A DNA stretch of 52,196 bases from Cytophagales bacterium (GTDB lineage: Bacteria > Bacteroidota > Bacteroidia > Cytophagales > Thermoflexibacteraceae). How positions within the stretch are numbered: position 1 is the stretch's first letter; each line of letters opens with the position of its first letter. Positions 921-19,572 of the stretch are shown piece after piece. The notes under the pieces are model-generated. The model did not search any database. It was given only the letters and a program-made list of their open reading frames with translations, and was not told the DNA's origin. Position numbers and translations under genes: made by a program. The stretch spans positions 1-52,196 of the forward strand of contig JAAFKA010000032.1 of assembly GCA_013299115.1 (NCBI GenBank), read 5' to 3'.

Positions 921-3900
921 CAACTTGCGGTGCAGGAGGCGGAGGAGGTGGTGCACCAACATTTACTGTAAATGTTGTTGAAACAGCATTAAGACCTCCG
1001 CAAGCAGTACCTCCATTATCTGTAACAGTAACAGTAATTTGTGCTGTGCCTGTTTGTGCTGCCACTGGCGTAAACGAAATTGTACCAGTTGGATTTGAAG
1101 GCGTATAAGTAACCGTAATTGGATTTGGTATCAAAGCCACGTTGCTACTTGTTGCCGTAACCGAAGTAATAGCTTGTCCTGTATCACCTGCACCTGTGCC
1201 AATACCTGTTAAATTAACAGTTTGCAATGGTGCACTAACAGGAATACCAATAGCAGGTAAGTTTGTAATGGTAGGCTGTACGTTTATAGGCGTAACAGTC
1301 AAAGCTACTGCATTGCTGGTTACACTTGGCGTACAAGTACCTGTTACAATTACTCGATATTGGCGACCATTCATTGCGTTGGCAACACCTGTTAAGGTTA
1401 AAGTGGCAGTTGTATTACCTGCCAAGTTTACAAAAGCACCTGCTGTGCCTGTGTTGTCTTGCCATTGGTAAGTCAAACCTGCACCTGTTGCTGCAACAGT
1501 AAAGGTTGCATTTGCACCAGCACAAGCTGTAACAGCCGTTGGTTGTGTGGTAATGGCAGGCAAAGCATTAACAGTCAAAACTGCTGATTGCGTTGTTGCA
1601 TTGCCACAACCTCCTGTGATTACGCATTGGTATTGGTTGGTACTCATACCTGCGGTTACTGCGGTCAAAGTTAAGGTTGCCGAAGTTGCACCGCCATACA
1701 CACCACCATTGGTAATGTTTGCGAAAGCTGCTACACCAACTTTTTCCTGCCATTGGTACGTTAATACCCCTGTGCCTGTGGCTGCTGCGGTGAAGGTAGC
1801 ATTTGCACCTACGCAAACAATTTGGGCTGCTGGGTTCGTTGTGATAGACGTTGCGGGATTAACAGTTAAAGCTACTGCGTTTGAAGTTGCATTGCCACAA
1901 GTGCCTGTGATGATACACTGATATTGGTAAGTGTTCATGGTGCTTGTTACGGCTGTCAAGGTCAAAGTTGCTGCGTTTGCACCTGCTATGTTGCCAAAAC
2001 CTGACCCTGTGTTTACTTGCCATTGGTAAGTCAATGTGCCTGTACCAGCACCTGCCACTGTGAAAGCAGCATTTGCACCCACGCAAACTGTTTGTGCAGT
2101 TGGTTGAGTGGTAACAGACGTTGCTGGGTTTACAGTTAAAGCAACAGGAATAGTAGTTGCGTTTCCGCAAGTACCTGTAACAATTACTTGGTATTGGTTG
2201 GTACTCATACCTGCTGTTACAGCAGTCAAAGTTAAAGAGGCAGTAGTTGCACTTGGATTGCCTGTAATATTAGCAAAAGCTGCCACCCCAATTTTTTCCT
2301 GCCACTGATATGTCAAGCCTGCACCCGCCGCCACTACGCTAAATGTTGCGTTTGCACCTGCACACACTGTTTGTGCAGTTGGTTGAGTTGTAATTGCAGT
2401 TGCGGGGTTTACAGTCAAAATAGCTGCATTGCTTGTTGCTGCGCCGCAAGTAGCCGAAGTAGCCACACAACGATATTGGTAGTTGTTCATGGCTGCTGTT
2501 ACGCCTGTCAAAGTCAAAGAAACAGTAGTTGCATTGCTATACACACCACCATTGGTAATATTTACAAAGCCAGCCCCTGTGTTTTCTTGCCATTGGAAAG
2601 TGGCTGCATTGGTAGCTGCAATGGTAAACGTAGCATTTTGCGTTGGGCAAACTGTTGCGTTAGTCGGTTGCGTGTTAATCACTACGTTTGTAGTAGTAAT
2701 TGTCAAATTCACACCATTGTCTGCACTGTTGGTGACTGGTGCAGAACTTACTACTCTAATTCTGTAATTGGTATTGGCTGCAATGACAGGAATAGTGCCA
2801 ACAATCGTACCGCCAGTGGTGCTTGTCAAAGTACCCATATTGGTAGAAGTTGCAAAATTGTCATTAGAAATTTGTGCAGTAAATACGTTACCTGCATTGA
2901 AAGCAGCAGCTACAGTAAACGGAATGTTTACAGTTACGCCTTGACAGAAAGTAGTACCTGTGATAGCACCCAAAATAATTCTGTTCAATGGGTCGCCAAC
3001 TGCAAAACCTCCACTGAGATTCATACCTGTAAAGGTTGCGGTAGTTGCTCTGCTGGTAGTCAAATAAGCTGCTGCATTTGTAGTCGTTGCAATCACATTG
3101 GTATTTCCGTTTGCTGTTGGTGCAGCAGGCGTGATGTTAGAAATAGCACCACCAGAACGGATAACTTTTGCGTTAGTATTCCAAACTTTGGAAGTAGCTG
3201 TTTGCCAACCTGTAACTTCGGTTGCGTCATGATACAACGTAATTTCATAGCTACCTGCTGCGTTGTCCGTAGTTGGGGTAACTCTGAAAGTTTTGTTAGC
3301 TGCTCTTTCTGCTGCGGGTGTGTTCCACAAATCCGTAGCACCTGTTCCATTTCTGTCAATGGCTACTGTCGTACAACCGTAGTCGTGGGCAGTCAAATTG
3401 ACAAGCCTTGCGATTGTTTTTCCTGCATTTACAAAAAATACAGTTTGGTTGGGTCCCACAGGGTGAGTTGCAGAAACTAAACCTGTTTCTACTGCATTAG
3501 CTGTTAAGCCTGTTACTACCAAATTGTCAATAGCAAACGGAGGATTTGAACCACCAGAACCGTCATTGTCCCAACGCCAAGCCAAATACAAGTTAGCTTG
3601 ACCTTCGCAAGCTGCGGGTAAAGTGATTGTATAAGTTCTAACAGTAGAAGAACCGTTAAATACAGGGGCTGGTGTCTGTGGAATGGTGTTATTAGCATCT
3701 GCATTTCCTTCTAAGGTAATAAATGTTGTACCATTAGTAGAATATTGCAAACGACCAAAATCATAAAAAGCACCACTAAACAAGTCATTGCCATTACAAA
3801 TCCAATCAAAAGTAACTTGTATGCTGCTTCTGCCAATTGTATTGAGGGCAGGGGCAACTAATCTTACTCTTGCAGTTAAACCATTGTCAAAAGTTAATGG

Positions 3901-6900
3901 TCTGGTTGTCATATTTTGCGAAATATAAGCAGCTTTTGTACCTGTCATACCTGCATTTTCACCAATAACCCATTTATTTGTAGGAGTAGCAGTAATATTT
4001 GCTCTCGACCATGTTGTTGCATTTGGCGTGCCTGTAACTTCGCCCAAAGTCAAACCCTCAAAGTTTTCGCTAAATATGGTAGCATTGGAGTTGTTTTGGT
4101 CATTAGTGCCAATCGTCAAAGTTATTGACGCATTACCCACAATATCTACACCACCAATCGGTGCAGAAGGTACAACAGCAATGTTCAAAATAATGGTTTC
4201 TGCACTTTCTTGCGTGCCATCATCAAACACACGAATAGTTGCGTTTTGATTAGCTGCACTTGCTGCGGGGAATGTTACAGTTGGCGTAAGCACTGTGTAA
4301 TCCAAAGCAGTTGTAGCAGTTCCCGAAGGCGTAATGGTTACGGTCAAAGCCTGTAAAGGTGCTGCCGAAACACGCAACGGAATAGTATAATCTGTGTAAG
4401 GACGACAATCTCCCATTGCACTTGCAGTTGTTGGTGCTTCTGGCGTTGCTGTTGCAGCATTGACAAAAGAAACCAAAGCAGGTCCATTTGGCGTACCTGT
4501 TCCAAAACCATTATTTGCAGCCAAACCTGATGTGAAAGACGACTGCACAAATCTGTCTGTTCCCGATAAGGTTGTACCTCTTACTGTACTTCCACCTACA
4601 TTATTGGTTGCACCATTGGCAAAAGGCGTGGCAGCAGTGATGTTGCTAATTGCCCCACCTGTGCTGATGACGTTTGCGTTGGCAGCCATTGTGTTTGGCG
4701 TTGCAGCACCATTATAAGCTGTTGCTTCGGCAGCAGTATAATAGGTTGTAACTCTCAAAGTAGAACTTGTATTTGGATTTGTTGGTGTTACCAAAATAGT
4801 TTTTTCTGCCAAGAAAGTAGAAGGTGTTGTATTCCAAAGTTCTCTGTTGGTGGTGCCTGTTCTGTCAATTTTTACAGTCGTACAACCGTAATCGTGAGCA
4901 GTAGGGTTTTCAATTTTTGCAAGCAATTTGTTTGCAGCATTGAAAAAATGCACCGTAGAATTTGGTCCCAAATACCTTGTTACTGTTTCGTTCAAAGCAG
5001 TTTCAATAACAGGGGTAGGTCTTGTTACTAACACAATGTTATCAATCACAAAAGGAGGATTGTTGCCATCGTTTGCATCATTGTCCCAACGCCAAATAAA
5101 ATACAAAGCAGGTTGGTTATTGCAAGCAGCAGGCAAAGCTACGCTGAAATTTGTAATATTCCCTTGATTTGCAAAAGGTGTTGTACCTGTAAAACCTCCA
5201 TCTTGCGTTGTTGTTGTTGCCTCAGAGGGTGTACCTGCACCTGTGATAGATTGGTAAGTACCTGTTGGGCTTGTTGAGTAGAACAAACGACCAAAATCCC
5301 ACAAATTCGTACCTGTGCCTGTGTCTTCGCCAATACATTTGAAGTCAAAAGAAATTTCCAAATTCGTAAAACCTACTGTGCTAATGGCAGGAGAAACCAA
5401 ACGTGAACGTGATGTAACACCATTGCCAGGTCCGCCAGCACTTGTATAAGCAACAGGTCTTGTGGTGGCGTTGTTAGAAATATAAGCAGATTTTCCTGTA
5501 ATGCCATCTGTTGATGAGCCAATTACCCAATCATTTGCTCCTGCTTCCAGAGTTCTACGCAACCAACCTGTGCCTGTTGCTGGCACTGCCCCTTCGGTTT
5601 GTGTTTCAAAATTCTCCGACCAAACAACAGTAGCCAATGGGAAACTGTCGTTATCACGAATGGTTATCACATTGGTTGGTGTTGCAGGTTGCAAAAAGCC
5701 TGTATTTGCCACTGCCAAAGACAAAGCAATGGTGAAATTTTCGTTACTTTCTGTGGCTGCATCATCAAAAATACGCACTGTTACAAATTGGTCTGCCATA
5801 CTTGCCGCAGGGAATGTAACCGTAGTAGTCATCAGTTGGAAATCAGAACCTGCGGTTGCTGTTGGAGTTCCTGTCAAGGCTACATTTAAAGTAGTAGCTA
5901 CGGCGGGTGCAAAAGAAACTTTTACAGGTATGGTAATATCTGTGTAACCCAAACAACCTGCTGCAACAGTTGTAGCCTCTGGTGTAGAAGTGCTTGAAGT
6001 AGCAAAGCTAAATGTAGGTTTGTCCACAAAACTTACATTGTCTATGTAGATATTATTACCTCCTCCACTTGTTCCCCAAAAACGGAATTTCACCTTCTGC
6101 CCTATGTAAGCACCAATATTGATGCCTTCTTTACGCCAATGCAAATTGCTGGTAGGAACAAAATCCCCCGCATTTTGCGAAGTAGTGATTAAAGTAGCAC
6201 CTGCTTTGTCATATAAAGGCGTTGCCACCCAAGTCAAACCGCAGTCGGTGGAAACTTGTACTTGTAATCTGTCTGTGTTGCCTCCTGCTTTTTGGCAATA
6301 AGCCACATCAAACTCCAATCTGGTGTTGGCGTTTGCACCTGTCAAGTCTAACATTCTGGTTATCAAAAAGTCATTCAAACCTGACGTGTTAGTACGAGAA
6401 AGACGCAAAACCGCAGCTTTTGTAACAGCACCTGTTGAGCCAATTAAGGTAGAACCCACCGCAGGCGACCAATTTACGCAGTCATTGCCTGGGTTTTCAC
6501 GTCCCCAACCTATGGGCAAGAAATCTCCCTCAAAGGTTTCAAACAAAGGAATAGTTCCTCCTGTGCTAGTGAAATTTGCAGCCGACTCGTCAAAAGTAGT
6601 AAAAGGGTCAGCCACACCATTTGGCAGTCTTGACAAAGCCGAAATGTTGTTGTTGCCCGCCACTACACCCGCAATAGGGTCTAAGGTCAAGTTGCTAATT
6701 GCGTTAGCAGGAATATTCAAACCTGTAAACACTTTGGTTTGTGTAGCACCACCATTTAATTTGTAATCAATAGTTATGCCTGTGAGAACCGAAGTACCAT
6801 GATTTTTTATTGCAATGACAGGCGTAATTGTCGTCGCACATACGTCTGTGGTAGGGAATACAATGTACTGCACCGCTGCATCTGTGGTAGCAGGTGGCAT

Positions 6901-7953
6901 CATTTTATCGGAATTTATCAAAGACCAACGGAAATTTTCCAAAGTAGTACGCATACGAATTGCTTGGTCTTTGGTAAAGATATTCAAACAACCATCATCA
7001 GAGTAGTCCATATAGTTTTCAAACATTTCATCGGCAGTACCGCAAGCATTTGGTTTGGGGTGCGTAGGGCATCCTCCATTGGCATCAGCATGAACAGGCG
7101 TATCTGCACAAAAGTCATCGCCGCAAGTAGCATCACCCCAAATGTGGCGTAAGCCTAACCAGTGACCAATTTCGTGAGTGGCAGTTCTTCCCAAATGGTA
7201 AGGCGTAGCAGTACCGGGTGCTGCGGGACCTCCCACAGAGCCAGCCAACATTACTACCCCATCAGTAGTAATAGAGCCAGGATTACAATCCATACCATTT
7301 AAAGAGGTAACAGGAAATTGAGCATAACCCAATAAATTATTTCCCAATGCTACCGACCAATAGTTCATATACAATGCACCGTCATAGCCTTGCGTAACCG
7401 TAGTAAAAGGCTTGATGTTAGCATCAATATAGGTAGGTGTATAAGGCGGTGCTGTCCAGCCCGCAGTGGTGCGGTTGATACGATTTACGCCATCTTCGCT
7501 GTTTGGAAAAGCCGAACCATCAGGACGGCGGCGTGCCAACACAAATTGAATTTGTGTGTCTGCTCCACGTGGGTCTGTATTGAAACCCGGTGTGGCTACA
7601 ATTCTACGAAAATCTTGATTCAACACATCTAACTGTGCTTGCATACGAGCATAGCTAATGTTAGTGCCTGTACCAACAGCTTCGCCATTATGAACTACGT
7701 GAAATACAACAGGAATTTCATACACACCGTTTACAATCCGACTATTAGGGTCGGCTTGTGCCTGTGCCATGTATTCCTTTACTTTGAGATTGAGTTGCTG
7801 CTCAAAATCGGCGTGTTGTTTTGCCAATTTCGGATTAGCAGCCACCCTTTGCTGGTGGACAGTATGCCCACAAGTCCGCTGGGCATAGGCTATGCTTTGC
7901 AAACCGAGCAAAAACAGTAGCAACAAACCCATAGATAGGTGATTTTTGTGCAT
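1..7953 (-). CDS. Giant secreted M43 metalloprotease with repetitive adhesive tail (3' end beyond window)
   Basis: The reading frame starts at the ATG at 7953 and stays open for 2651 codons to position 1, so the C-terminus is missing. A signal peptide (residues 1-24, cleavage after AYA) precedes a peptidase M43 domain with HEIGHWLGLRH at residues 260-270 (zinc ligands H260, H264, H270; catalytic E261) and a downstream NYMDYSDD Met-turn. Then come three jelly-roll or anchor-type modules alternating with two Calx-beta-like domains (about 6800-2800). Five tandem Ig-like repeats of about 90 residues follow (about 2700-1290; each begins near TTQPT and contains TYQWQ). The last part is MBG-like repeats opening with QTITFD. 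M43 enzymes of this type in Bacteroidota are exported, and a T9SS sorting domain would be expected beyond the window (inference). The last 307 codons are nearly identical to the end of the gene at 43820. Confidence 0.9.
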   Translation of the reverse strand, partial: MHKNHLSMGLLLLFLLGLQSIAYAQRTCGHTVHQQRVAANPKLAKQHADFEQQLNLKVKEYMAQAQADPNSRIVNGVYEIPVVFHVVHNGEAVGTGTNISYARMQAQLDVLNQDFRRIVATPGFNTDPRGADTQIQFVLARRRPDGSAFPNSEDGVNRINRTTAGWTAPPYTPTYIDANIKPFTTVTQGYDGALYMNYWSVALGNNLLGYAQFPVTSLNGMDCNPGSITTDGVVMLAGSVGGPAAPGTATPYHLGRTATHEIGHWLGLRHIWGDATCGDDFCADTPVHADANGGCPTHPKPNACGTADEMFENYMDYSDDGCLNIFTKDQAIRMRTTLENFRWSLINSDKMMPPATTDAAVQYIVFPTTDVCATTITPVIAIKNHGTSVLTGITIDYKLNGGATQTKVFTGLNIPANAISNLTLDPIAGVVAGNNNISALSRLPNGVADPFTTFDESAANFTSTGGTIPLFETFEGDFLPIGWGRENPGNDCVNWSPAVGSTLIGSTGAVTKAAVLRLSRTNTSGLNDFLITRMLDLTGANANTRLEFDVAYCQKAGGNTDRLQVQVSTDCGLTWVATPLYDKAGATLITTSQNAGDFVPTSNLHWRKEGINIGAYIGQKVKFRFWGTSGGGNNIYIDNVSFVDKPTFSFATSSTSTPEATTVAAGCLGYTDITIPVKVSFAPAVATTLNVALTGTPTATAGSDFQLMTTTVTFPAASMADQFVTVRIFDDAATESNENFTIALSLAVANTGFLQPATPTNVITIRDNDSFPLATVVWSENFETQTEGAVPATGTGWLRRTLEAGANDWVIGSSTDGITGKSAYISNNATTRPVAYTSAGGPGNGVTSRSRLVSPAISTVGFTNLEISFDFKCIGEDTGTGTNLWDFGRLFYSTSPTGTYQSITGAGTPSEATTTTQDGGFTGTTPFANQGNITNFSVALPAACNNQPALYFIWRWDNDANDGNNPPFVIDNIVLVTRPTPVIETALNETVTRYLGPNSTVHFFNAANKLLAKIENPTAHDYGCTTVKIDRTGTTNRELWNTTPSTFLAEKTILVTPTNPNTSSTLRVTTYYTAAEATAYNGAATPNTMAANANVISTGGAISNITAATPFANGATNNVGGSTVRGTTLSGTDRFVQSSFTSGLAANNGFGTGTPNGPALVSFVNAATATPEAPTTASAMGDCRPYTDYTIPLRVSAAPLQALTVTITPSGTATTALDYTVLTPTVTFPAASAANQNATIRVFDDGTQESAETIILNIAVVPSAPIGGVDIVGNASITLTIGTNDQNNSNATIFSENFEGLTLGEVTGTPNATTWSRANITATPTNKWVIGENAGMTGTKAAYISQNMTTRPLTFDNGLTARVRLVAPALNTIGRSSIQVTFDWICNGNDLFSGAFYDFGRLQYSTNGTTFITLEGNADANNTIPQTPAPVFNGSSTVRTYTITLPAACEGQANLYLAWRWDNDGSGGSNPPFAIDNLVVTGLTANAVETGLVSATHPVGPNQTVFFVNAGKTIARLVNLTAHDYGCTTVAIDRNGTGATDLWNTPAAERAANKTFRVTPTTDNAAGSYEITLYHDATEVTGWQTATSKVWNTNAKVIRSGGAISNITPAAPTANGNTNVIATTTNAAAYLTTSRATTATFTGMNLSGGFAVGDPLNRIILGAITGTTFCQGVTVNIPFTVAAAFNAGNVFTAQISNDNFATSTNMGTLTSTTGGTIVGTIPVIAANTNYRIRVVSSAPVTNSADNGVNLTITTTNVVINTQPTNATVCPTQNATFTIAATNAATFQWQENTGAGFVNITNGGVYSNATTVSLTLTGVTAAMNNYQYRCVATSATCGAATSNAAILTVNPATAITTQPTAQTVCAGANATFSVVAAGAGLTYQWQEKIGVAAFANITGNPSATTASLTLTAVTAGMSTNQYQVIVTGTCGNATTIPVALTVNPATSVTTQPTAQTVCVGANAAFTVAGAGTGTLTYQWQVNTGSGFGNIAGANAATLTLTAVTSTMNTYQYQCIITGTCGNATSNAVALTVNPATSITTNPAAQIVCVGANATFTAAATGTGVLTYQWQEKVGVAAFANITNGGVYGGATSATLTLTAVTAGMSTNQYQCVITGGCGNATTQSAVLTVNALPAITTQPTAVTACAGANATFTVAATGAGLTYQWQDNTGTAGAFVNLAGNTTATLTLTGVANAMNGRQYRVIVTGTCTPSVTSNAVALTVTPINVQPTITNLPAIGIPVSAPLQTVNLTGIGTGAGDTGQAITSVTATSSNVALIPNPITVTYTPSNPTGTISFTPVAAQTGTAQITVTVTDNGGTACGGLNAVSTTFTVNVGAPPPPPPAPQVAQTITFDALPDRIFSTVPFTLVATASSGLPVSFTVVSGNLAIGGNTASMTGLGEVVVEATQSGNFAFLAATPVRRTFRILPAPQSIVGFDSIPDRAWNSGNFFVNARSSSGLPVVYTVTAGQNIASILPAQPNLVVLNTTTPAVGRVTITATIPAGGNFAAATTLTRSFNVVKANQSIGNIVAPFNGVFGQLTTATVSASATSNLPVTTTVTGNATIVGNTLTINGAGVITLTFAQAGNDLWNAATNVVRTFEVAKANQTIRFTQPINPLLNTAINLSAVASSNLPVSIRIVSGTGTVNQAAGTVNM
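1290..2700 (-). repeat. Five tandem Ig-like repeats inside the M43 protein
   Basis: Read on the minus strand, five units of about 90 residues succeed each other. Each has the order TTQPT, a Cys in a VC(A/V)GANA-like segment, a TYQWQ or FQWQ core strand, an SLTLT or TLTLT strand, a YQ(Y/C) strand, a second Cys in TCGNAT, and closing AxLTVNP. Approximate unit boundaries are 2700, 2405, 2125, 1853, 1567 and 1290. The paired cysteines and spacing fit Ig-like adhesive domains. The units are clearly related but have diverged at nucleotide level, so they are older than the terminal 920-bp repeat. Confidence 0.75.
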
Positions 7954-8253
7954 AAGATTTGTGAAATTGTTAGTTGATAAAATTTAAAAATTACTAAAAT
8001 TGAAGTTTGTTTTTACATTCAATAATAGTTTTCAAATGTATAATAAAAAAAAGAATTTTTAAGTGTTTTATTCTTATTTTTATACAAAATAAGTGTATGA
8101 ATTTTAAGGTAGTTTCTCAATTTGTTATTTTAAAGAATACAAGCAGTTAATAAACAGAAAAAGAGTTTTCTATATCTTTGGTTGTTAGCAAATAAAAGAG
8201 TAATTTTGCGAAAAATTTAATCTTTTTAATAAACATTCAATTACAATTACAAC
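7954..8253. other. Divergent intergenic region between the M43 gene and efp
   Basis: This is an AT-rich spacer between two outward-reading genes. On the minus strand, 8033-8040 reads TACATTTG and could be the -7 box of the M43 gene; I see no good -33 box for it. On the plus strand a well-formed promoter lies at 8178-8208 (separate entry). Nothing else was recognised. Confidence 0.5.
8178..8208 (+). promoter_or_regulatory. Predicted Bacteroidota-type promoter of efp
   Basis: TTG at 8178-8180 is followed, after a 20-base spacer, by TAATTTTG at 8201-8208. This matches the -33 TTG / -7 TAnnTTTG pattern of the Bacteroidota primary sigma factor. Transcription would begin near 8215, leaving a leader of about 40 bases before the ATG at 8254. 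Another -7-like box (TATCTTTG) lies at 8173-8180. Confidence 0.6.
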
Positions 8254-8811
8254 ATGAACACAGGAGATATTAACGTAGGCTCATTTATCAGACACGAAGG
8301 CGAATTGGTGCAAATACTTGAGTATCAGCACCGTACACCGGGCAATTTGCGTGCTTTTTACCAAGCCAAAATGCGTAACCTAAAAAATGGTAAGTTAGTC
8401 GAGTACCGTTTTCGTTCAGGAGAAAACGTAGATGTGGTACGTGTAGAACTAAAAACGATGCAATATCTCTACAAAGAAGGCGAAAGTATGGTCTTGATGG
8501 ACCACACAAGCTACGAACAAATCTATGTAGAGGCTTCTCTTTTTGGCGATAGCATTGCTTTTTTGAAAGAAAATATAGATGTGATTGTAGCTTTTGACGA
8601 AGAAACTCCACTTTTTGCAGAGCCTCCACGTACTATGGTGTTGGAAATTACCTACACAGAACCTGGTATCAAAGGAGATACAGCCACTCGTACACTCAAA
8701 CCTGCCACAGTGGAAACAGGAGCAAAAGTAAACGTACCCTTGTTTTGCAACACTGGTGAGTTAATCAAAGTGGACACCAAAACAGGTGAGTATATGGAAA
8801 GAGTAAAATAA
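8254..8811 (+). CDS. efp: Elongation factor P
   Basis: Elongation factor P binds stalled ribosomes between the P and E sites and promotes peptide-bond formation at polyproline stretches. The 185-residue protein is full length, with the KOW-like N-terminal domain, the central OB domain and a C-terminal OB domain ending in the usual YMERVK tail. The tip loop that enters the peptidyl-transferase centre reads TPGNLRAF (residues 28-35). Aligned with E. coli, the modified Lys34 position is Asn31 here, with Arg33 two residues further on. I believe this loop is typical of a Bacteroidota EF-P subgroup (from memory). The gene stands alone, with its own promoter and a strong hairpin after the stop codon. 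Confidence 0.95.
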   Translation: MNTGDINVGSFIRHEGELVQILEYQHRTPGNLRAFYQAKMRNLKNGKLVEYRFRSGENVDVVRVELKTMQYLYKEGESMVLMDHTSYEQIYVEASLFGDSIAFLKENIDVIVAFDEETPLFAEPPRTMVLEITYTEPGIKGDTATRTLKPATVETGAKVNVPLFCNTGELIKVDTKTGEYMERVK

Positions 8812-8841
8812 TTTTTTGGTATTTGATACCAAAAGTGCAAT

Positions 8842-8875
8842 AAAGATGACATCTTTTTAAAAGATGTCATCTTTT
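8842..8875 (+). terminator. Hairpin terminator after efp
   Basis: A perfect 16-base-pair stem (8842-8857 with 8859-8874) built from the core AAGATG(A/T)CATCTT, followed by a short T run, lies 30 bases after the efp stop. Almost the same stem sequence is found in the hairpin at 41689-41721. Confidence 0.7.
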
Positions 8876-8891
8876 ACGCCACTTTCCCAAT

Positions 8892-9049
8892 ATGCTAAAC
8901 CTCCGCAATCCTGATGGAAGTTTCAACTTTGACAACGTAAGTTCTTTTTCGGAGGCATTATAGAAAAAGACTCTGTCGTAAAAATCACTTTCAAATCTAA
9001 CGAATTTTGTAAAACACAAGCTAACGACTCGTTTTTTATACCTTTGTAG
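8892..9049 (+). pseudogene. Possible short gene remnant with one frameshift
   Basis: Two short reading frames join across a T run near 8945-8949. The first reads LNLRNPDGSFNFDNV, the second FGGIIEKDSVVKITF and onward to a stop at 9047-9049. Together they look like a short piece of a protein rather than random sequence, but I do not recognise the family, and no intact start-to-stop gene can be made. The rest of the 8876-9095 spacer holds only a MITE-like end at 9077-9090. Confidence 0.25.
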
Positions 9050-9076
9050 AAGTACTTGCAGTGCAACCCGTTTCTA

Positions 9077-9090
9077 AATAACCTCTAATA
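9077..9090 (-). repeat. Orphan MITE-like terminal sequence
   Basis: AATAACCTCTAATA is identical to bases 43655-43668, which include the right terminus of the MITE-like element at 43549-43665. I see no partner terminus nearby, so this may be a remnant or a chance match. Confidence 0.3.
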
Positions 9091-9095
9091 GACAA

Positions 9096-9542
9096 CTACA
9101 CAGCAAATTGCCTGAAATGGTGGTCTAAATGTTTGTGTGCCAAATGTCCCCATTCATCTTTGGGCATATCGCCAAAGAATGGGTGTGTTACCAAAGTATC
9201 TTTTGCCACAAATCTGTCTAGCAAACTAAACAAAGCAGCTTTTTCGTAGGCAAAATCTTTGGCAACTGTTCCTTTCTTGTCTTTGTCCAATTCAGGAATG
9301 GTTGGCGAGTTTTTAGCAAAGCTAAACTTGAAAATTATCCATTTTAGTATCACCCTATTAAAGAAATTGGCGTTTGGATAGAGTTCTTTTTCGCCTAAGC
9401 CCATTCGAAGTTGGTCAGAACAGTGGCAGAGCATTTGGGATGCGGTCATTGTTCCCCATTGGCGAGGAGAATTTTCGTTTAAATTTTGCAAACGAGTTTT
9501 GATAGCAGCCAACTCTTGGGGATTGTAAATATTGCCTTGCAT
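9096..9542 (-). CDS. DUF1569 / DinB-like protein
   Basis: A 148-residue protein starting with MQGNIYN. An upstream in-frame start (9596) would add a poorly conserved 18-residue leader, so 9542 is preferred. The pattern fits DUF1569, a DinB-like four-helix family: an N-terminal helix pair, WGTMTASQMLCHCSDQ (His in helix 2), a Pro-rich loop, and the closing WGHLAHKHLDHHFRQF. The histidines in MLCHC and KHLDHH are placed like the metal ligands of DinB-type proteins. The biochemical role of the family is not established. It is convergent with efp and has no obvious partner. Confidence 0.7.
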   Translation of the reverse strand: MQGNIYNPQELAAIKTRLQNLNENSPRQWGTMTASQMLCHCSDQLRMGLGEKELYPNANFFNRVILKWIIFKFSFAKNSPTIPELDKDKKGTVAKDFAYEKAALFSLLDRFVAKDTLVTHPFFGDMPKDEWGHLAHKHLDHHFRQFAV

Positions 9543-14654: not shown

Positions 14655-15656
14655 ATGACAACCCTTGTTACCAATACTTCTCCCCAAATTATTCAACAAA
14701 CTTTGCTTGCTTTGTTGGAAACAGCCCAAAAAAGTATTTGGGTGGCAGTGGCGTGGTTTACAGACCAAACTCTTGCAGAGGTGCTGTGGCGAAAAGCAAA
14801 GCAAGGCGTGGCAGTCCGTTTGGTGGCAGTGGCAGACGAATTGAACGAGGAACAAGGTATTGATTTTCAGGGACTTAGCGAGCAAGGTGCAGAAGTTTTG
14901 TTGTGGGAGGGCAATGAATTGATGCACCATAAATTTTGTGTTGTCGACAAGTTATGGGCAGTCGTGGGGTCATACAATTACACTTATGCAGCCCAAAACC
15001 AATGGGAAAGTGTGGTAGTTATCAAAAATAAGCAGCAAGCTACCGAATTACACGCCGAATTTGACCGAATAGTGGCGGCGTATTGGCAGCAAGTAGCCAA
15101 AGAAGAGGGTAAATCTCCGCTTACGTTGGCGTGGTGGCACAACCTCCTGCACTACGGAAAACTGAACAAAAAAGGCTTAAAAAACTATACTTGGCAGCAT
15201 ATTTTCAGGCTGCATTTGGCTCTGCACAACAAGGGAATTGCCTTGACTAACGAAACAGTCTATACCAATGGGGCAAACCACCAAAGTAGCAACTGTTTTG
15301 AGGTTTATCAACAACTGATGGGCAAAAAATTTGCCGTTGCCCTCACTCCCCTAACCAAACCCAAACTTCACCAATTAACCCAAATCAAAAGCCTTTGGCT
15401 TACAGGGCTGGGTATCAAGACCTTAGCCCCTTTGCAACCTTTTGCTCACTTAGAAGAACTTTATTGCGGACACAACCAACTACCCGACCTTGCCCCCTTA
15501 GCTACTTGCCAACATCTCCACACCTTGCACGCATGGGGTAATGAATTGACCAATATAGAGTCGCTAAACTCTTTGCCAAATTTGCAGGAGTGGAATTTAG
15601 AGGGAAATCCACAAGTGGGGTCGGTGAAGGGGAAAGGGAGGTTTGGGGGGAGGTAA
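14655..15656 (+). CDS. Phospholipase D-like protein with C-terminal leucine-rich repeats
   Basis: A 333-residue protein with no signal peptide. Residues 1-150 form one PLD-like domain with a single HKD motif (H91, K93, D98, then GSYN at 105-108), like the single-motif Nuc or mitoPLD-type proteins that act as dimers. Residues about 240-320 are short leucine-rich repeats (LTQIKSLWLTGLGIKTL, HLEELYCGHNQLPDL, HLHTLHAWGNELTNI, NLQEWNLEGNP). A cytoplasmic nuclease or phosphodiesterase coupled to a recognition module is a reasonable inference, but substrate and role are not shown. It lies next to the IS relic and the ATPase-DUF4435 module, so it may belong to the same accessory region. Confidence 0.75.
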   Translation: MTTLVTNTSPQIIQQTLLALLETAQKSIWVAVAWFTDQTLAEVLWRKAKQGVAVRLVAVADELNEEQGIDFQGLSEQGAEVLLWEGNELMHHKFCVVDKLWAVVGSYNYTYAAQNQWESVVVIKNKQQATELHAEFDRIVAAYWQQVAKEEGKSPLTLAWWHNLLHYGKLNKKGLKNYTWQHIFRLHLALHNKGIALTNETVYTNGANHQSSNCFEVYQQLMGKKFAVALTPLTKPKLHQLTQIKSLWLTGLGIKTLAPLQPFAHLEELYCGHNQLPDLAPLATCQHLHTLHAWGNELTNIESLNSLPNLQEWNLEGNPQVGSVKGKGRFGGR

Positions 15657-15895: not shown

Positions 15896-16017
15896 TTAGC
15901 TGAATTTGTGCTGTTCGTACTACTTCTATAGTTGATAATATATCTTTGTTCGTATAAAAAGTAGCATTTTTTTGAAAAAAAGTGAGCATCTTTGTAAGTT
16001 CCTTAGGCTTTCAAACT

Positions 16018-16746
16018 ATGCTCACAGTAAAATCTGATAGTTCTCAAATTTCAATGCTAATCTACGAAATGTATCATCGGGCGGCGAACCGCTATCCTGA
16101 TGCAATTGTGCAAAAAAGATTTCATGTTATTTACCTAAAAATGACTAACCCCGAATTAAGTTGCACGCAAATTGGCTCTTATGCAGCCTTGCACTGCAAC
16201 ACCGTAAGCAGTATTATTCACACCTATAATGCTTCTGGTCTGGAGGGACTAAAATACAACAACTATGGTACAAATCAATCTGATTTGTGCAAGCATAGCC
16301 ATAGAAAAGGCAAAAAAGGGAGAAATAGCCCTGCTTTTTTGCGACTCTGCTCATTTTGTGATGGGGGTATTTCTTAGTCATCTGTGGGCTATTTGTCGAG
16401 TTTTTATTCCTTCTTCAGCAGGTAGAAGCCGTTTAAATGTTACAGGTGCCATAGACGCAATCACCAAAAAACTCTATTTCCAAACCAATAACACAACAGT
16501 CAATGCACAGTCGTTTATGGAATTTTTGTTGTATTTGCGAAGTCAAATGCTTGACAAAGCCATTGTCATTGTATTGGACAATGCACGCTATCAGCATTGC
16601 AACCTAGTCAAAGAGCTGGCAGTAACTTTAGAAATTACCTTGTTGTTTTGCCGCCCTATTCGCCAAACCTCAACAATATAGAGAGATTATGGAAATTTGT
16701 AAAGAAAAAGGCACTCTACGGGAAGTTTTATCAAAATTACGAATAG
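16018..16746 (+). pseudogene. Decayed IS630-family transposase
   Basis: The N-terminal helix-turn-helix part starts at MLTVKSDSSQ and continues to YGTNQSDL. The DDE part then appears in the +1 frame (EKAKKGEIALLFCDSAHF, GRSRLNVTGAID, IVLDNARYQHC). The third catalytic residue lies in yet another frame (LPPYSPNLNNIERLWKFV) after loss of a T in the run at 16646-16649. IS630 transposases may use one programmed frameshift. Here, however, the segment between the HTH and DDE parts (about 80-90 residues in intact relatives, from memory) is also missing, and the end is truncated at 16744-16746. All three catalytic acids are still encoded but not in one frame, so the element is dead. I could not define its terminal repeats. 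Confidence 0.8.
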
Positions 16747-17035: not shown

Positions 17036-18460
17036 ATGAAAATTAGAGAATTTAAAGTATATGGCTTTTGGGGCAAGTATGATGTGCGTTGGGAAATGAA
17101 ATCTAATGTTAATGTATTAGTGGGTATCAATGGTTTAGGCAAAAGTTCTTTGCTTAAACTGCTTGCCTACTGCCTTAACCCAGAAGATGACTCTAAAGTA
17201 GCTTGGGAAGAAGTGGCTAAATTGGCAGAGGAAGTAGAAATTATTTTTGTAAATGGTGGGGTCATTAGGGTAGATTTACATAACTATATGATCGATGATG
17301 CAAAAAATGTACGTCAATTTATCAATATGGATTGGGCAGATTTGCAAATTATAACTAATGAAGTTCCACTAATTGTAAAAACTTTTGACAATGCGGATAG
17401 TTTAGATAAAATTTTAGGGCTTAGAAACAATGAAGGTTTTTTTTCGGCTTTGATTGGGCATTTTTTTAATTATCGCAATGAAAAAATAGCAACAGTGCTT
17501 GATAATGGAGGTAATCTTGCCGAAGAAAGTCGTGATATTTACAACTTGTATGATGTGATAGATAAATATTTTGGTGATTCTAATAAAAGAATAAACAGAA
17601 GTTTTCGGACAAAAGAATTTTTATTTGAGCCTACCAACATTGGTGTAGATAAACTTTCTTCGGGAGAAAAACAACTACTTGTTCTATTTTTGGCTACATT
17701 TTTACAACGCCAACAAGAAACTTTTTTGCTTTTAGACGAGCCTGAAACTTCTCTACATACGTTATGGCAAGAAAACTTGTTTAGTGATTTATTAGCAATC
17801 AATCCAAACTGCCAATTAATTGTAGTAACACATGCAACTTCTACTTTTGGCTATGATTGGGTAAGCAACAGAGTTAGAATAAATGAAATTATTTTTCCTA
17901 TTGGTACTTTGTTGCAAGAAAATAAGCAAGAAATGGAAAATAGTTTTCAACAAAACTATCCTGCATTAGTACAAAATGTTATCAATTTTATTGATACGCA
18001 AATTCAAAACACAAATGCTTATCAAGTTACTTACGAAATTAATGTTTTGTTAAAAAATATTGACGTAATTTCTCTACAACACGCAGGAGAAATTGTAAGG
18101 AGAATGAATAATAAAGGTATTAAGGTAGATGTTATTACCATTACAACGCTAATTAACCGAGTTTTTTCTACTGTAGAAGAAGCTAAACAATTATTACAAA
18201 TAGGTAATGTAGAGCCAAATGACTATGCTTTTAATTCCCTCTTAAAAAAGGCTAATTCTGTTGAAAATGGCGTACAATTTATTGCCGAATTTATTGCTTT
18301 GTATAATTATATTAAACCTGATATATTCACGTTTAGCACTTTGCTTGGCAAGGCAAAAAATGCAGAAGAGGTTAGGCTTGTAGAAGACCAACGTATGTAT
18401 TATAATGTCAAGGCTAATGAAATTTATAACTCTAAACTTCATTTTAAACTGGCAAAATAA
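17036..18460 (+). CDS. AriA-like AAA ATPase with C-terminal PPR-like repeats
   Basis: A 474-residue cytoplasmic ATPase. Residues 1-290 are an ABC/SMC-type AAA domain: Walker A GINGLGKSS (30-38), signature LSSGEKQ (207-213), Walker B LLLDEPE (231-237) and H-loop H266. Residues about 330-465 are not part of that fold. They form about four tandem helical repeats of 30-36 residues with the PPR pattern, starting VTYEINVLL (331), VITITTLI (366), DYAFNSLL (396) and IFTFSTLL (430), and ending GIKVD, VEPN, IKPD and VKAN. The downstream DUF4435 gene overlaps by one base. ATPase + DUF4435 is the composition of the PARIS anti-phage system (AriA-AriB), where the ATPase senses a phage protein and restrains the nuclease. 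The PPR-like tail is not a feature of AriA that I know of. Confidence 0.85.
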   Translation: MKIREFKVYGFWGKYDVRWEMKSNVNVLVGINGLGKSSLLKLLAYCLNPEDDSKVAWEEVAKLAEEVEIIFVNGGVIRVDLHNYMIDDAKNVRQFINMDWADLQIITNEVPLIVKTFDNADSLDKILGLRNNEGFFSALIGHFFNYRNEKIATVLDNGGNLAEESRDIYNLYDVIDKYFGDSNKRINRSFRTKEFLFEPTNIGVDKLSSGEKQLLVLFLATFLQRQQETFLLLDEPETSLHTLWQENLFSDLLAINPNCQLIVVTHATSTFGYDWVSNRVRINEIIFPIGTLLQENKQEMENSFQQNYPALVQNVINFIDTQIQNTNAYQVTYEINVLLKNIDVISLQHAGEIVRRMNNKGIKVDVITITTLINRVFSTVEEAKQLLQIGNVEPNDYAFNSLLKKANSVENGVQFIAEFIALYNYIKPDIFTFSTLLGKAKNAEEVRLVEDQRMYYNVKANEIYNSKLHFKLAK

Positions 18461-19572
18461 TGGACGAAACTACAAAAAGAGATGACGAGAAAAGCCAAAA
18501 TGAAGACTTTATTTTGACTGCTACAGAAAATGGTCGTTACATCATATTTGCAGAGTCCGAAGAGGAAGATAAATTCTTTTGGCGTGATGTTATCACACAA
18601 TTTGCACCTGAGAAAGCCAAAAGTAAACATAAGATTACTGTTTTACTCAATTCAAAGGGCAAAAAACAAAATGGTGTTTCTGAAATACGCAAATTTCTAA
18701 GAACGACAAAACTTACTTTGGCAGCACAAAATGTACTATTTTGTATAGATAGTGATGCTAATTATTTGCTCAAAGATGAATTGACACAAAATAAATCCTA
18801 CATTTTACAAACCTATACTTACAGTATTGAAAATCATAAATCTGTTCCCGAAAATCTAAACAAAATTGTAGAAAAATACGAAATAGAGTTTGATTTCAGG
18901 ATTTTTCTAAGTAAATACTCAAAAGTTATTTATGACTTTTTTCTCTATTGGTTGGCTATAAAAAAAATAGAATTGCCTATACAAGAAGAACTTGCAACAA
19001 CCCACATTCCTGACACAGAATTTGAACAGATAAAGCTAAGACGTAAAAATTTACTCAAACCTATTACAAAAGAAGAACACAAAAAGGTAATAGAAATTAG
19101 TGGTGCTATTGATATTGCCAATAATGGGCAAACAATACTAGACAATATTCAAAATAAAATAGCTGTTTGGAAAGTGAATTATGCTACTGAACTTGCAAAT
19201 ATTGACATAGACCAAATAAAAACTTATTTGGTAGAAAACAACTTTAATATTTTGCCAGAGGAAATTTACTTATACATAAGAGGACATAATCTTTTTGGAG
19301 AGAAGGAAAATGATGGGGTCATTTTAGCACTGCTTTTTGCTATTTCTGATAATAAACGGCAAAGCAAAAAGCAAATGGAACAAGAAATTCAGGATACGCA
19401 ACTCTCTGGAGAAGAAAAATGGGAGAAAAAGAAAGAACTTTATGCTTTGCTTGCTTATGAAAAAATGGCTAATGAAAGCTATAAATATTCTTTTACTAAT
19501 CAAATATGTGCGTTGATGAATAAAATACAAAATGATGTGCAAAAGTATTTCAGAGAGAAAAAAGAAATTTAA
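18460..19572 (+). CDS. DUF4435 protein, AriB-like putative toprim nuclease
   Basis: A 370-residue partner of the ATPase; its ATG shares a base with the upstream TAA, indicating translational coupling. The N-terminal half shows the DUF4435 (toprim/OLD-like) pattern: IIFAESEEEDKFFW with acidic E32, a central CIDSDAN carrying D97 and D99, and the family hallmark YSIEN (residues 121-125, E124). These acids correspond to the metal-binding E...DxD set of toprim enzymes. The C-terminal half is helical and charged. In PARIS, AriB is released from the ATPase on infection and cleaves host tRNA, stopping growth; a similar job is inferred here, not shown. AT content is higher than in the neighbouring housekeeping genes, in keeping with an acquired module. 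Confidence 0.8.
   Translation: MDETTKRDDEKSQNEDFILTATENGRYIIFAESEEEDKFFWRDVITQFAPEKAKSKHKITVLLNSKGKKQNGVSEIRKFLRTTKLTLAAQNVLFCIDSDANYLLKDELTQNKSYILQTYTYSIENHKSVPENLNKIVEKYEIEFDFRIFLSKYSKVIYDFFLYWLAIKKIELPIQEELATTHIPDTEFEQIKLRRKNLLKPITKEEHKKVIEISGAIDIANNGQTILDNIQNKIAVWKVNYATELANIDIDQIKTYLVENNFNILPEEIYLYIRGHNLFGEKENDGVILALLFAISDNKRQSKKQMEQEIQDTQLSGEEKWEKKKELYALLAYEKMANESYKYSFTNQICALMNKIQNDVQKYFREKKEI

Follow-up and report, generated by a model that had tools for sequence, protein, structure and literature searches.

The question raised by this locus is what a run of pentatricopeptide repeats (PPRs) does at the end of a bacterial ATPase of the antiphage system PARIS. The window, by which we mean the whole stretch of 52,196 nucleotides analysed, covers positions 1-52196 of contig C26 in the genome of a Cytophagales bacterium (5.5 Mb, assembled in 74 contigs). 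On its forward strand lie a gene for an AriA-like protein of 474 amino acids (17036..18460) and a gene for an AriB-like Toprim protein of 370 amino acids (18460..19572), the two reading frames sharing a single base at 18460. Both the coordinates and the one-base overlap had been correctly given in the original prediction, a reading of these letters that assigned the pair to PARIS and proposed a PPR-like tail on its ATPase.

PARIS is defined by an ATPase together with a DUF4435 protein (PMC9122126), and several lines of evidence place the present pair within it. Among three window proteins scanned with PADLOC (twelve were compared with Pfam), the pair matched AriA at 1.3e-44 and AriB at 5.8e-34. 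The AlphaFold2 model of AriA, with a mean predicted local distance difference test (pLDDT) score of 83.9, finds its best structural match in AriA of Escherichia coli PARIS (8ux9_B; Z 21.1, root-mean-square deviation 3.0), with 263 residues aligned within model residues 1-289. For the AriB model (mean pLDDT 82.7) the best Foldseek match is the AriB chain of the same structure (8ux9_A), a weak one (E 2.7e-3, prob 0.99), and an AriB sequence profile found no relative in the PDB. With the conserved Toprim residues of AriB, these matches uphold the assignment and support identifying the pair as an AriA-type ABC ATPase and an AriB-type Toprim gene of PARIS.

The pair resembles PARIS of the E. coli B185 type in that an ABC ATPase of the AriA fold precedes an AriB-type Toprim gene, but here AriA ends in a PPR tail some 150 residues long. 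The E. coli AriA chain (396 residues, of which 263 align) has more sequence beyond the common core. No published description of an AriA-PPR fusion was found in a literature search that left most subscription papers and bioRxiv-only preprints outside its scope. That the tailed pair represents a new variant of PARIS is well supported. Another antiphage nucleoside triphosphatase (NTPase), PaAvs5-3 of AVAST type 5, likewise has predicted PPRs in a C-terminal repeat domain; it is, however, a STAND NTPase and not an AriA, and the passage on these repeats discusses protein ligands and no RNA code (PMC12931631).

The tail occupies AriA residues 328-473 and consists of four PPR repeats followed by a capping helix. 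The window protein matches Pfam PPR_3 above its cut-off (28.6 bits against 25) and falls just below that of PPR_2 (29.5 against 30); of 20 tailed relatives, 17 contain PPR_2 and 15 contain PPR_3 at E<=1e-3. With the same threshold, a profile built from 16 tails matched 42 distinct sequences of the PDB, every one a PPR protein, an identity taken mostly from molecule names; the PAP2/pTAC2 sequences among them are PPR proteins as well. Natural PPR10 was matched by the tail profile at 2e-25, and the designer protein 4ozs, also matched, is described as a PPR protein (PMC13041630).

AlphaFold2 models the tail well, with ten-residue pLDDT means of 82-98 from residue 331 onward, and arranges it as successive helix pairs. 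These are helices 328-340/347-359 for repeat 1 (residues 332-365, 18029..18130), 366-375/380-390 for repeat 2 (residues 366-395, 18131..18220), 396-403/409-422 for repeat 3 (residues 396-429, 18221..18322) and 430-439/443-455 for repeat 4 (residues 430-461, 18323..18418), all on the forward strand, with a further helix capping the C-terminus (residues 462-473, 18419..18454) in which Y464 and L468 are invariant in the 20 relatives. A fold search with the whole AriA model returned only the ATPase among the matches listed and barely probed the tail. The claim of four tandem PPR-like repeats, for which a profile search and a structure prediction had been named as checks, is thus borne out by the PPR_3 match, by the PDB profile matches and by the paired alpha-helical hairpins of the model, and the evidence supports the tail being a PPR domain. 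With P-type PPR proteins such as PPR10 and the designer PPRs it shares helix-pair repeats of 30-34 residues and a code at position 5 and the last position, differing in having four repeats only, in being bacterial and in being joined to an immune-type ATPase instead of working in an organelle.

Could such a tail be simply the way in which AriA proteins normally end? A scan of named genomes gave 475 relatives, of which the best-scoring 80 loci were kept. The first nine of these align to query residue 471 and are tailed, whereas the other 71 are AriA proteins without a tail: in 70 of them the alignment ends by query residue 298, the exception (L074) being a gene of only 286 amino acids, and their AriA reading frames span 216-375 amino acids. 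An AriB start, recognised with a hidden Markov model, lies within 60 bases in 52 of the 71. The window's own genome holds two more tailed pairs (L002 on contig C13 and L003 on C45) and one pair without a tail (L004 on C33). The tail is therefore not the ordinary helical end of AriA, an outcome that the original prediction had named as refuting it; that candidate is ruled out by its absence from 71 of the 80 best-scoring loci and from L004.

Tailed AriA genes are scattered widely. The set that we aligned comprises 20 intact genes from 17 genomes in three phyla, namely Bacteroidota (Cytophagales, Saprospiraceae and relatives of the window's genome), Cyanobacteriota (including Nostocales, Oscillatoriales, Tychonema and Anabaena) and Thermodesulfobacteriota, where one Desulfobacterales genome has two copies. 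Outside the aligned set stand a Sphaerospermopsis gene with a broken N-terminal frame (L057) and a tailed fragment with two stops (L160/L178). AriB adjoins 18 of 21 tailed AriA genes (the aligned 20 and L057), and the fifteen other tails compared are 33-44% identical to that of the window. At E<=0.001 the tail profile matches eight of 59 near-relative genomes, the window's own included, one of them solely through a PPR gene that is not an AriA. At least four of 395 Bacteroidota genomes match at E<=1e-8, of which only the window's own does so by a tailed AriA, and at least eight of 386 Cyanobacteria match, including the fragment and the broken gene L057; both counts are lower bounds, as at most ten candidates were scored per genome. 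One of 247 genomes matches in the phylum of the Desulfobacterales genome. Beside the second tailed copy in that genome (L173, G448:C191, 5019-7202), AriB is truncated and the start of AriA occurs once more, suggestive of a past duplication.

On an ATPase tree of the 20 tailed sequences and 29 without a tail (28 picked from the 71, and one from the window's own genome), the distribution of the tail takes two changes, and a single tailed clade is compatible with the data (approximately unbiased test, p-AU 0.469); repeated gain of the tail is thus unsupported. Several long branches, the window's included, make placements on this tree unsure. Mobile carriage was not found: two of 50,697 phage records gave a match, which extends across 15% of the query, and 39 of 72,556 plasmid records did, none over 80% of the query, all of the plasmid matches listed (20 of the 39) ending by residue 314. 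Two scans of viral contigs with a few peptide patterns found no relative.

For a PPR domain, the ligand should be legible in the residues that choose bases. At position 5 and the last position, repeats 1 to 4 carry N/D (N336, D365), T/N (T370, N395), N/D (N400, D429) and S/N (S434, N461). The pairs of repeats 2-4 had been correctly read in the original prediction, which overlooked that of repeat 1. In the PPR code ND specifies U and SN specifies A, and for TN, threonine at position 5 prefers purines and Asn35 prefers adenine (PMC4837458); repeats read bases in 5' to 3' order (PMC13041630, PMC11094755). The predicted ligand would be 5'-U-A-U-A-3', with a relaxed second repeat and hence U-N-U-A.

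These eight residues are strongly conserved. In the 20 relatives N336, N400, S434 and N461 are each present 20 times, D365 and D429 19 times, N395 17 times and T370 15 times, and the pattern is common to about seven deep lineages as read from the tree. Their mean conservation is 0.94 compared with 0.65 at the remaining 130 tail positions that were scored, a level that none of 20000 random eight-position draws reached (kinship uncorrected). The pattern kept is specific to each repeat (N/T/N/S at position 5, D/N/D/N at the last), which is more than helix capping alone demands. Because the letter-choosing positions are nearly unchanged across distant bacteria, the tail probably recognises a short RNA, and we regard RNA binding as fairly likely, with support from conservation that the original prediction did not have. 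This same conservation goes unexplained if the tail is instead a solenoid for docking proteins, which would either hold AriB or a trigger protein from a phage or make the AriA oligomer stiffer, its PPR-like residues being inherited structure. Solenoid repeats do often bind proteins, and two of the three PPR proteins that we found beside NACHT-like NTPase genes (L167 and L168) have unusual code pairs; on balance we hold protein docking to be a somewhat unlikely account of the tail.

Which RNA, then, might be read? The genome has 40 transfer RNA (tRNA) genes by RF00005; ARAGORN named 34 distinct tRNAs, and 31 distinct anticodon loops were parsed; one tRNA-Cys loop was left unplaced, and some isoacceptors, including tRNA-Ile, were not named by ARAGORN. 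U-N-U-A occurs in four of the 31 loops, at positions 34-37 of Lys(UUU), Thr(UGU) and Arg(UCU) and at 33-36 of Tyr(GUA). The E. coli AriB nuclease cuts chiefly Lys(UUU) and Thr(UGU), and to a lesser degree Asn(GUU) and Thr(CGU) (PMC12409363). Of the 64 patterns of the form X-N-X-X, U-N-U-A alone is shared by the loops of Lys(UUU) and Thr(UGU), and we treat this match to the tRNA targets of AriB, made post hoc on sequence, as a lead.

Two other kinds of RNA ligand were considered. The tail could be a trigger sensor, detecting a phage RNA or a phage tRNA (for example one with anticodon UAU), switching the AriA ATPase and freeing AriB. Its location on the sensor subunit and a conserved code made of known pairs would suit such a role, and UAUA corresponds to U34-A35-U36-A37 of tRNA-Ile(UAU), an anticodon not found among the 34 tRNAs of this incomplete set, in which no tRNA-Ile was named. 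A four-base site, however, is frequent in AT-rich transcripts and would discriminate poorly by itself, and conservation of the code over three phyla is more in keeping with a ligand that stays the same than with a phage ligand that changes fast. That the site is short and constant counts mildly against a phage-RNA sensor, which we judge unlikely. Organellar PPR proteins commonly control transcripts, and the tail might by the same logic bind the leader RNA of its own operon. UAUA, however, shows no enrichment in the 150-base stretches preceding 20 ariA genes, with 34 seen against 31.8 expected from dinucleotide resampling, and we consider autoregulation very improbable.

Our preferred reading, to which we give slightly better than even chances, is a PPR-tailed PARIS whose tail binds a short RNA and serves to dock RNA at the AriA-AriB complex. 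In E. coli PARIS an AriA hexamer holds AriB, which is released upon an Ocr-like trigger (PMC12409363). By analogy with that system, AriA would be the ABC-ATPase sensor and scaffold, and AriB a Toprim RNase restrained and activated by AriA; defence against phages by the tailed pair is, from the behaviour of the family, quite likely. The four-repeat domain would use residue 5 and the final residue of every repeat to bind short single-stranded RNA, favouring 5'-U-A-U-A-3' with a loose second base, and would thereby bring RNA to the complex. The preferred candidate for that RNA is an anticodon loop, that of the tRNAs cleaved by AriB, with U34-N35-U36-A37 of tRNAs of the Lys-UUU and Thr-UGU type as the docked site. 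That the tail docks specifically the tRNA substrate of AriB is a tentative proposal that may well prove wrong. Yet more doubtful is the joint proposition that it reads U34-N35-U36-A37 of AriB-cut tRNAs and exemplifies a wider use of coded PPRs in bacterial immune-type NTPase and signalling genes.

Some bearing on the code itself comes from bacterial arrays whose repeats can be compared with one another, where variable code positions would be expected if bacterial PPRs use the code. In a 758-residue protein with about eleven PPR repeats (L161, G121:C29, 877-3150), ten repeats were compared: variability is highest at positions 4, 5 and last, with a mean entropy of 1.00 at the code positions and 0.15 elsewhere, and three of 496 position pairs reach as high. 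The six near-identical repeats of a 618-residue protein (L163, G207:C29, 5234-7087) give 1.19 and 0.17, with five of 496 pairs as high. The evidence that bacterial PPRs use the code is mixed and leans to yes. The N-terminal part of the L161 protein has no Pfam match and, going by motif, resembles a nucleotide cyclase.

Several observations count against these proposals. An array of four repeats is short for binding that is both tight and sequence-specific. In the tRNAs concerned, positions 34 and 37 usually bear modifications, and these could mask the Watson-Crick faces by which PPRs recognise bases. None of the 31 anticodon loops parsed contains UAUA exactly, so that literal UAUA docking on the genome's own tRNAs is ruled out within that set; U-N-U-A, whose 1-in-64 match is post hoc, is found also in Arg(UCU) and Tyr(GUA), neither of them among the reported AriB targets, and the T/N pair of repeat 2 predicts A where Lys has U35 and Thr has G35. 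The 20000-draw test takes no account of kinship among the relatives. Two of the 21 tailed loci (L170 and L176) are without AriB, and in a third (L173) it is truncated. As for the comparison between repeats, position 4 in L161 and positions 28 and 30 in L163 are as variable as the code positions; the two code positions hold just 50 of 148 pairwise amino-acid differences in L161 and 19 of 58 in L163, the remaining 98 and 39 lying outside them; and an array on contig C67 of the window's own genome (four repeats) has no excess at code positions, 177 of 528 pairs being as high. Finally, E. coli AriB acts after leaving AriA, which fits badly with docking on AriA (PMC12409363).

The ATPase core of AriA carries the motifs expected of an ABC enzyme, and the residues claimed for it hold up, H266 among them, the key positions being invariant or at least 90% conserved in the 20 tailed relatives. 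Walker A is GINGLGKSS (residues 30-38, 17123..17149), with G30, N32, G33, G35 and K36 invariant; the ABC signature is LSSGEKQ (residues 207-213, 17654..17674), with L207 and G210-Q213 invariant and S208 and S209 at 90% or more; and Walker B is LLLDEPE (residues 231-237, 17726..17746), with D234 and E235 invariant. All three lie on the forward strand.

In AriB, the proposed Toprim acids fared unevenly. The DxD motif D97-S98-D99 (18748..18756, forward strand) is secure, D97, D99 and E124 being present in all 24 aligned AriB rows. E32, proposed as the glutamate, does not fall in the conserved column, which is E in 22 of 24 rows and S33 in the window protein; E32 and E34 flank it, and we are unsure which glutamate serves. 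The partner had further been called a DUF4435 gene, an identity as AriB that the PADLOC score sustains, although Pfam DUF4435 itself does not match window AriB at E<=1; of three AriB paralogues in the same genome, two score above the Pfam cut-off and one below.

Around the pair, transposase pieces that we take to be IS630-like lie directly upstream (15982-16681; DDE_3 at 5.4e-9 in one of two overlapping frames). Further upstream (14655-15656), a PLD-like nuclease domain is fused to leucine-rich repeats, with weak PADLOC similarity to DrmC and DpdK. Downstream of ariB is a large protein with no Pfam match at E<=1e-5.

PPR genes also stand beside other NTPase or defence-like genes. Elsewhere in the window's genome (L009, G000:C67:85000-97000), a PPR gene of 520 amino acids (5138-6700) with near-identical 33-residue repeats (PPR_2 4.5e-48) is overlapped by a gene judged by eye to be P-loop ATPase-like (3819-5141), for which Pfam gave nothing at E<=0.01; a pair much like it by eye, broken over frames and contigs, occurs in G002 (L166, L165). 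A NACHT-like NTPase gene with a PPR gene following it was found in three genomes, at 4945-6702 and 7008-7901 in the window's own (L168, G000:C46), 7516-9285 and 6092-7516 in L167, and 3957-5489 and 5486-6502 in L164. The own pair is 43% and 41% identical to that of L167, and the L164 NTPase is 27% identical to the own one; PADLOC gave those of these genes that were scanned only weak matches (mad8, PtuA; best E 9e-4). In L162 (G186:C41, 5079-7091), a PPR gene of 260 amino acids adjoins a DUF3644 gene amid genes that by eye resemble type I restriction-modification.

Few modular RNA readers are understood as well as PPR arrays, which are known mainly from organelles and whose sequence allows the ligand to be predicted. 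When a bacterial immune sensor carries a conserved array, the question of what the sensor or effector recognises turns into a directly testable prediction of four letters. The array also bears on how AriB picks its tRNAs, which PMC12409363 raises in its discussion as an open question. To judge from the other pairs of PPR and NTPase genes described above, PPR-tailed PARIS may belong to a wider class.

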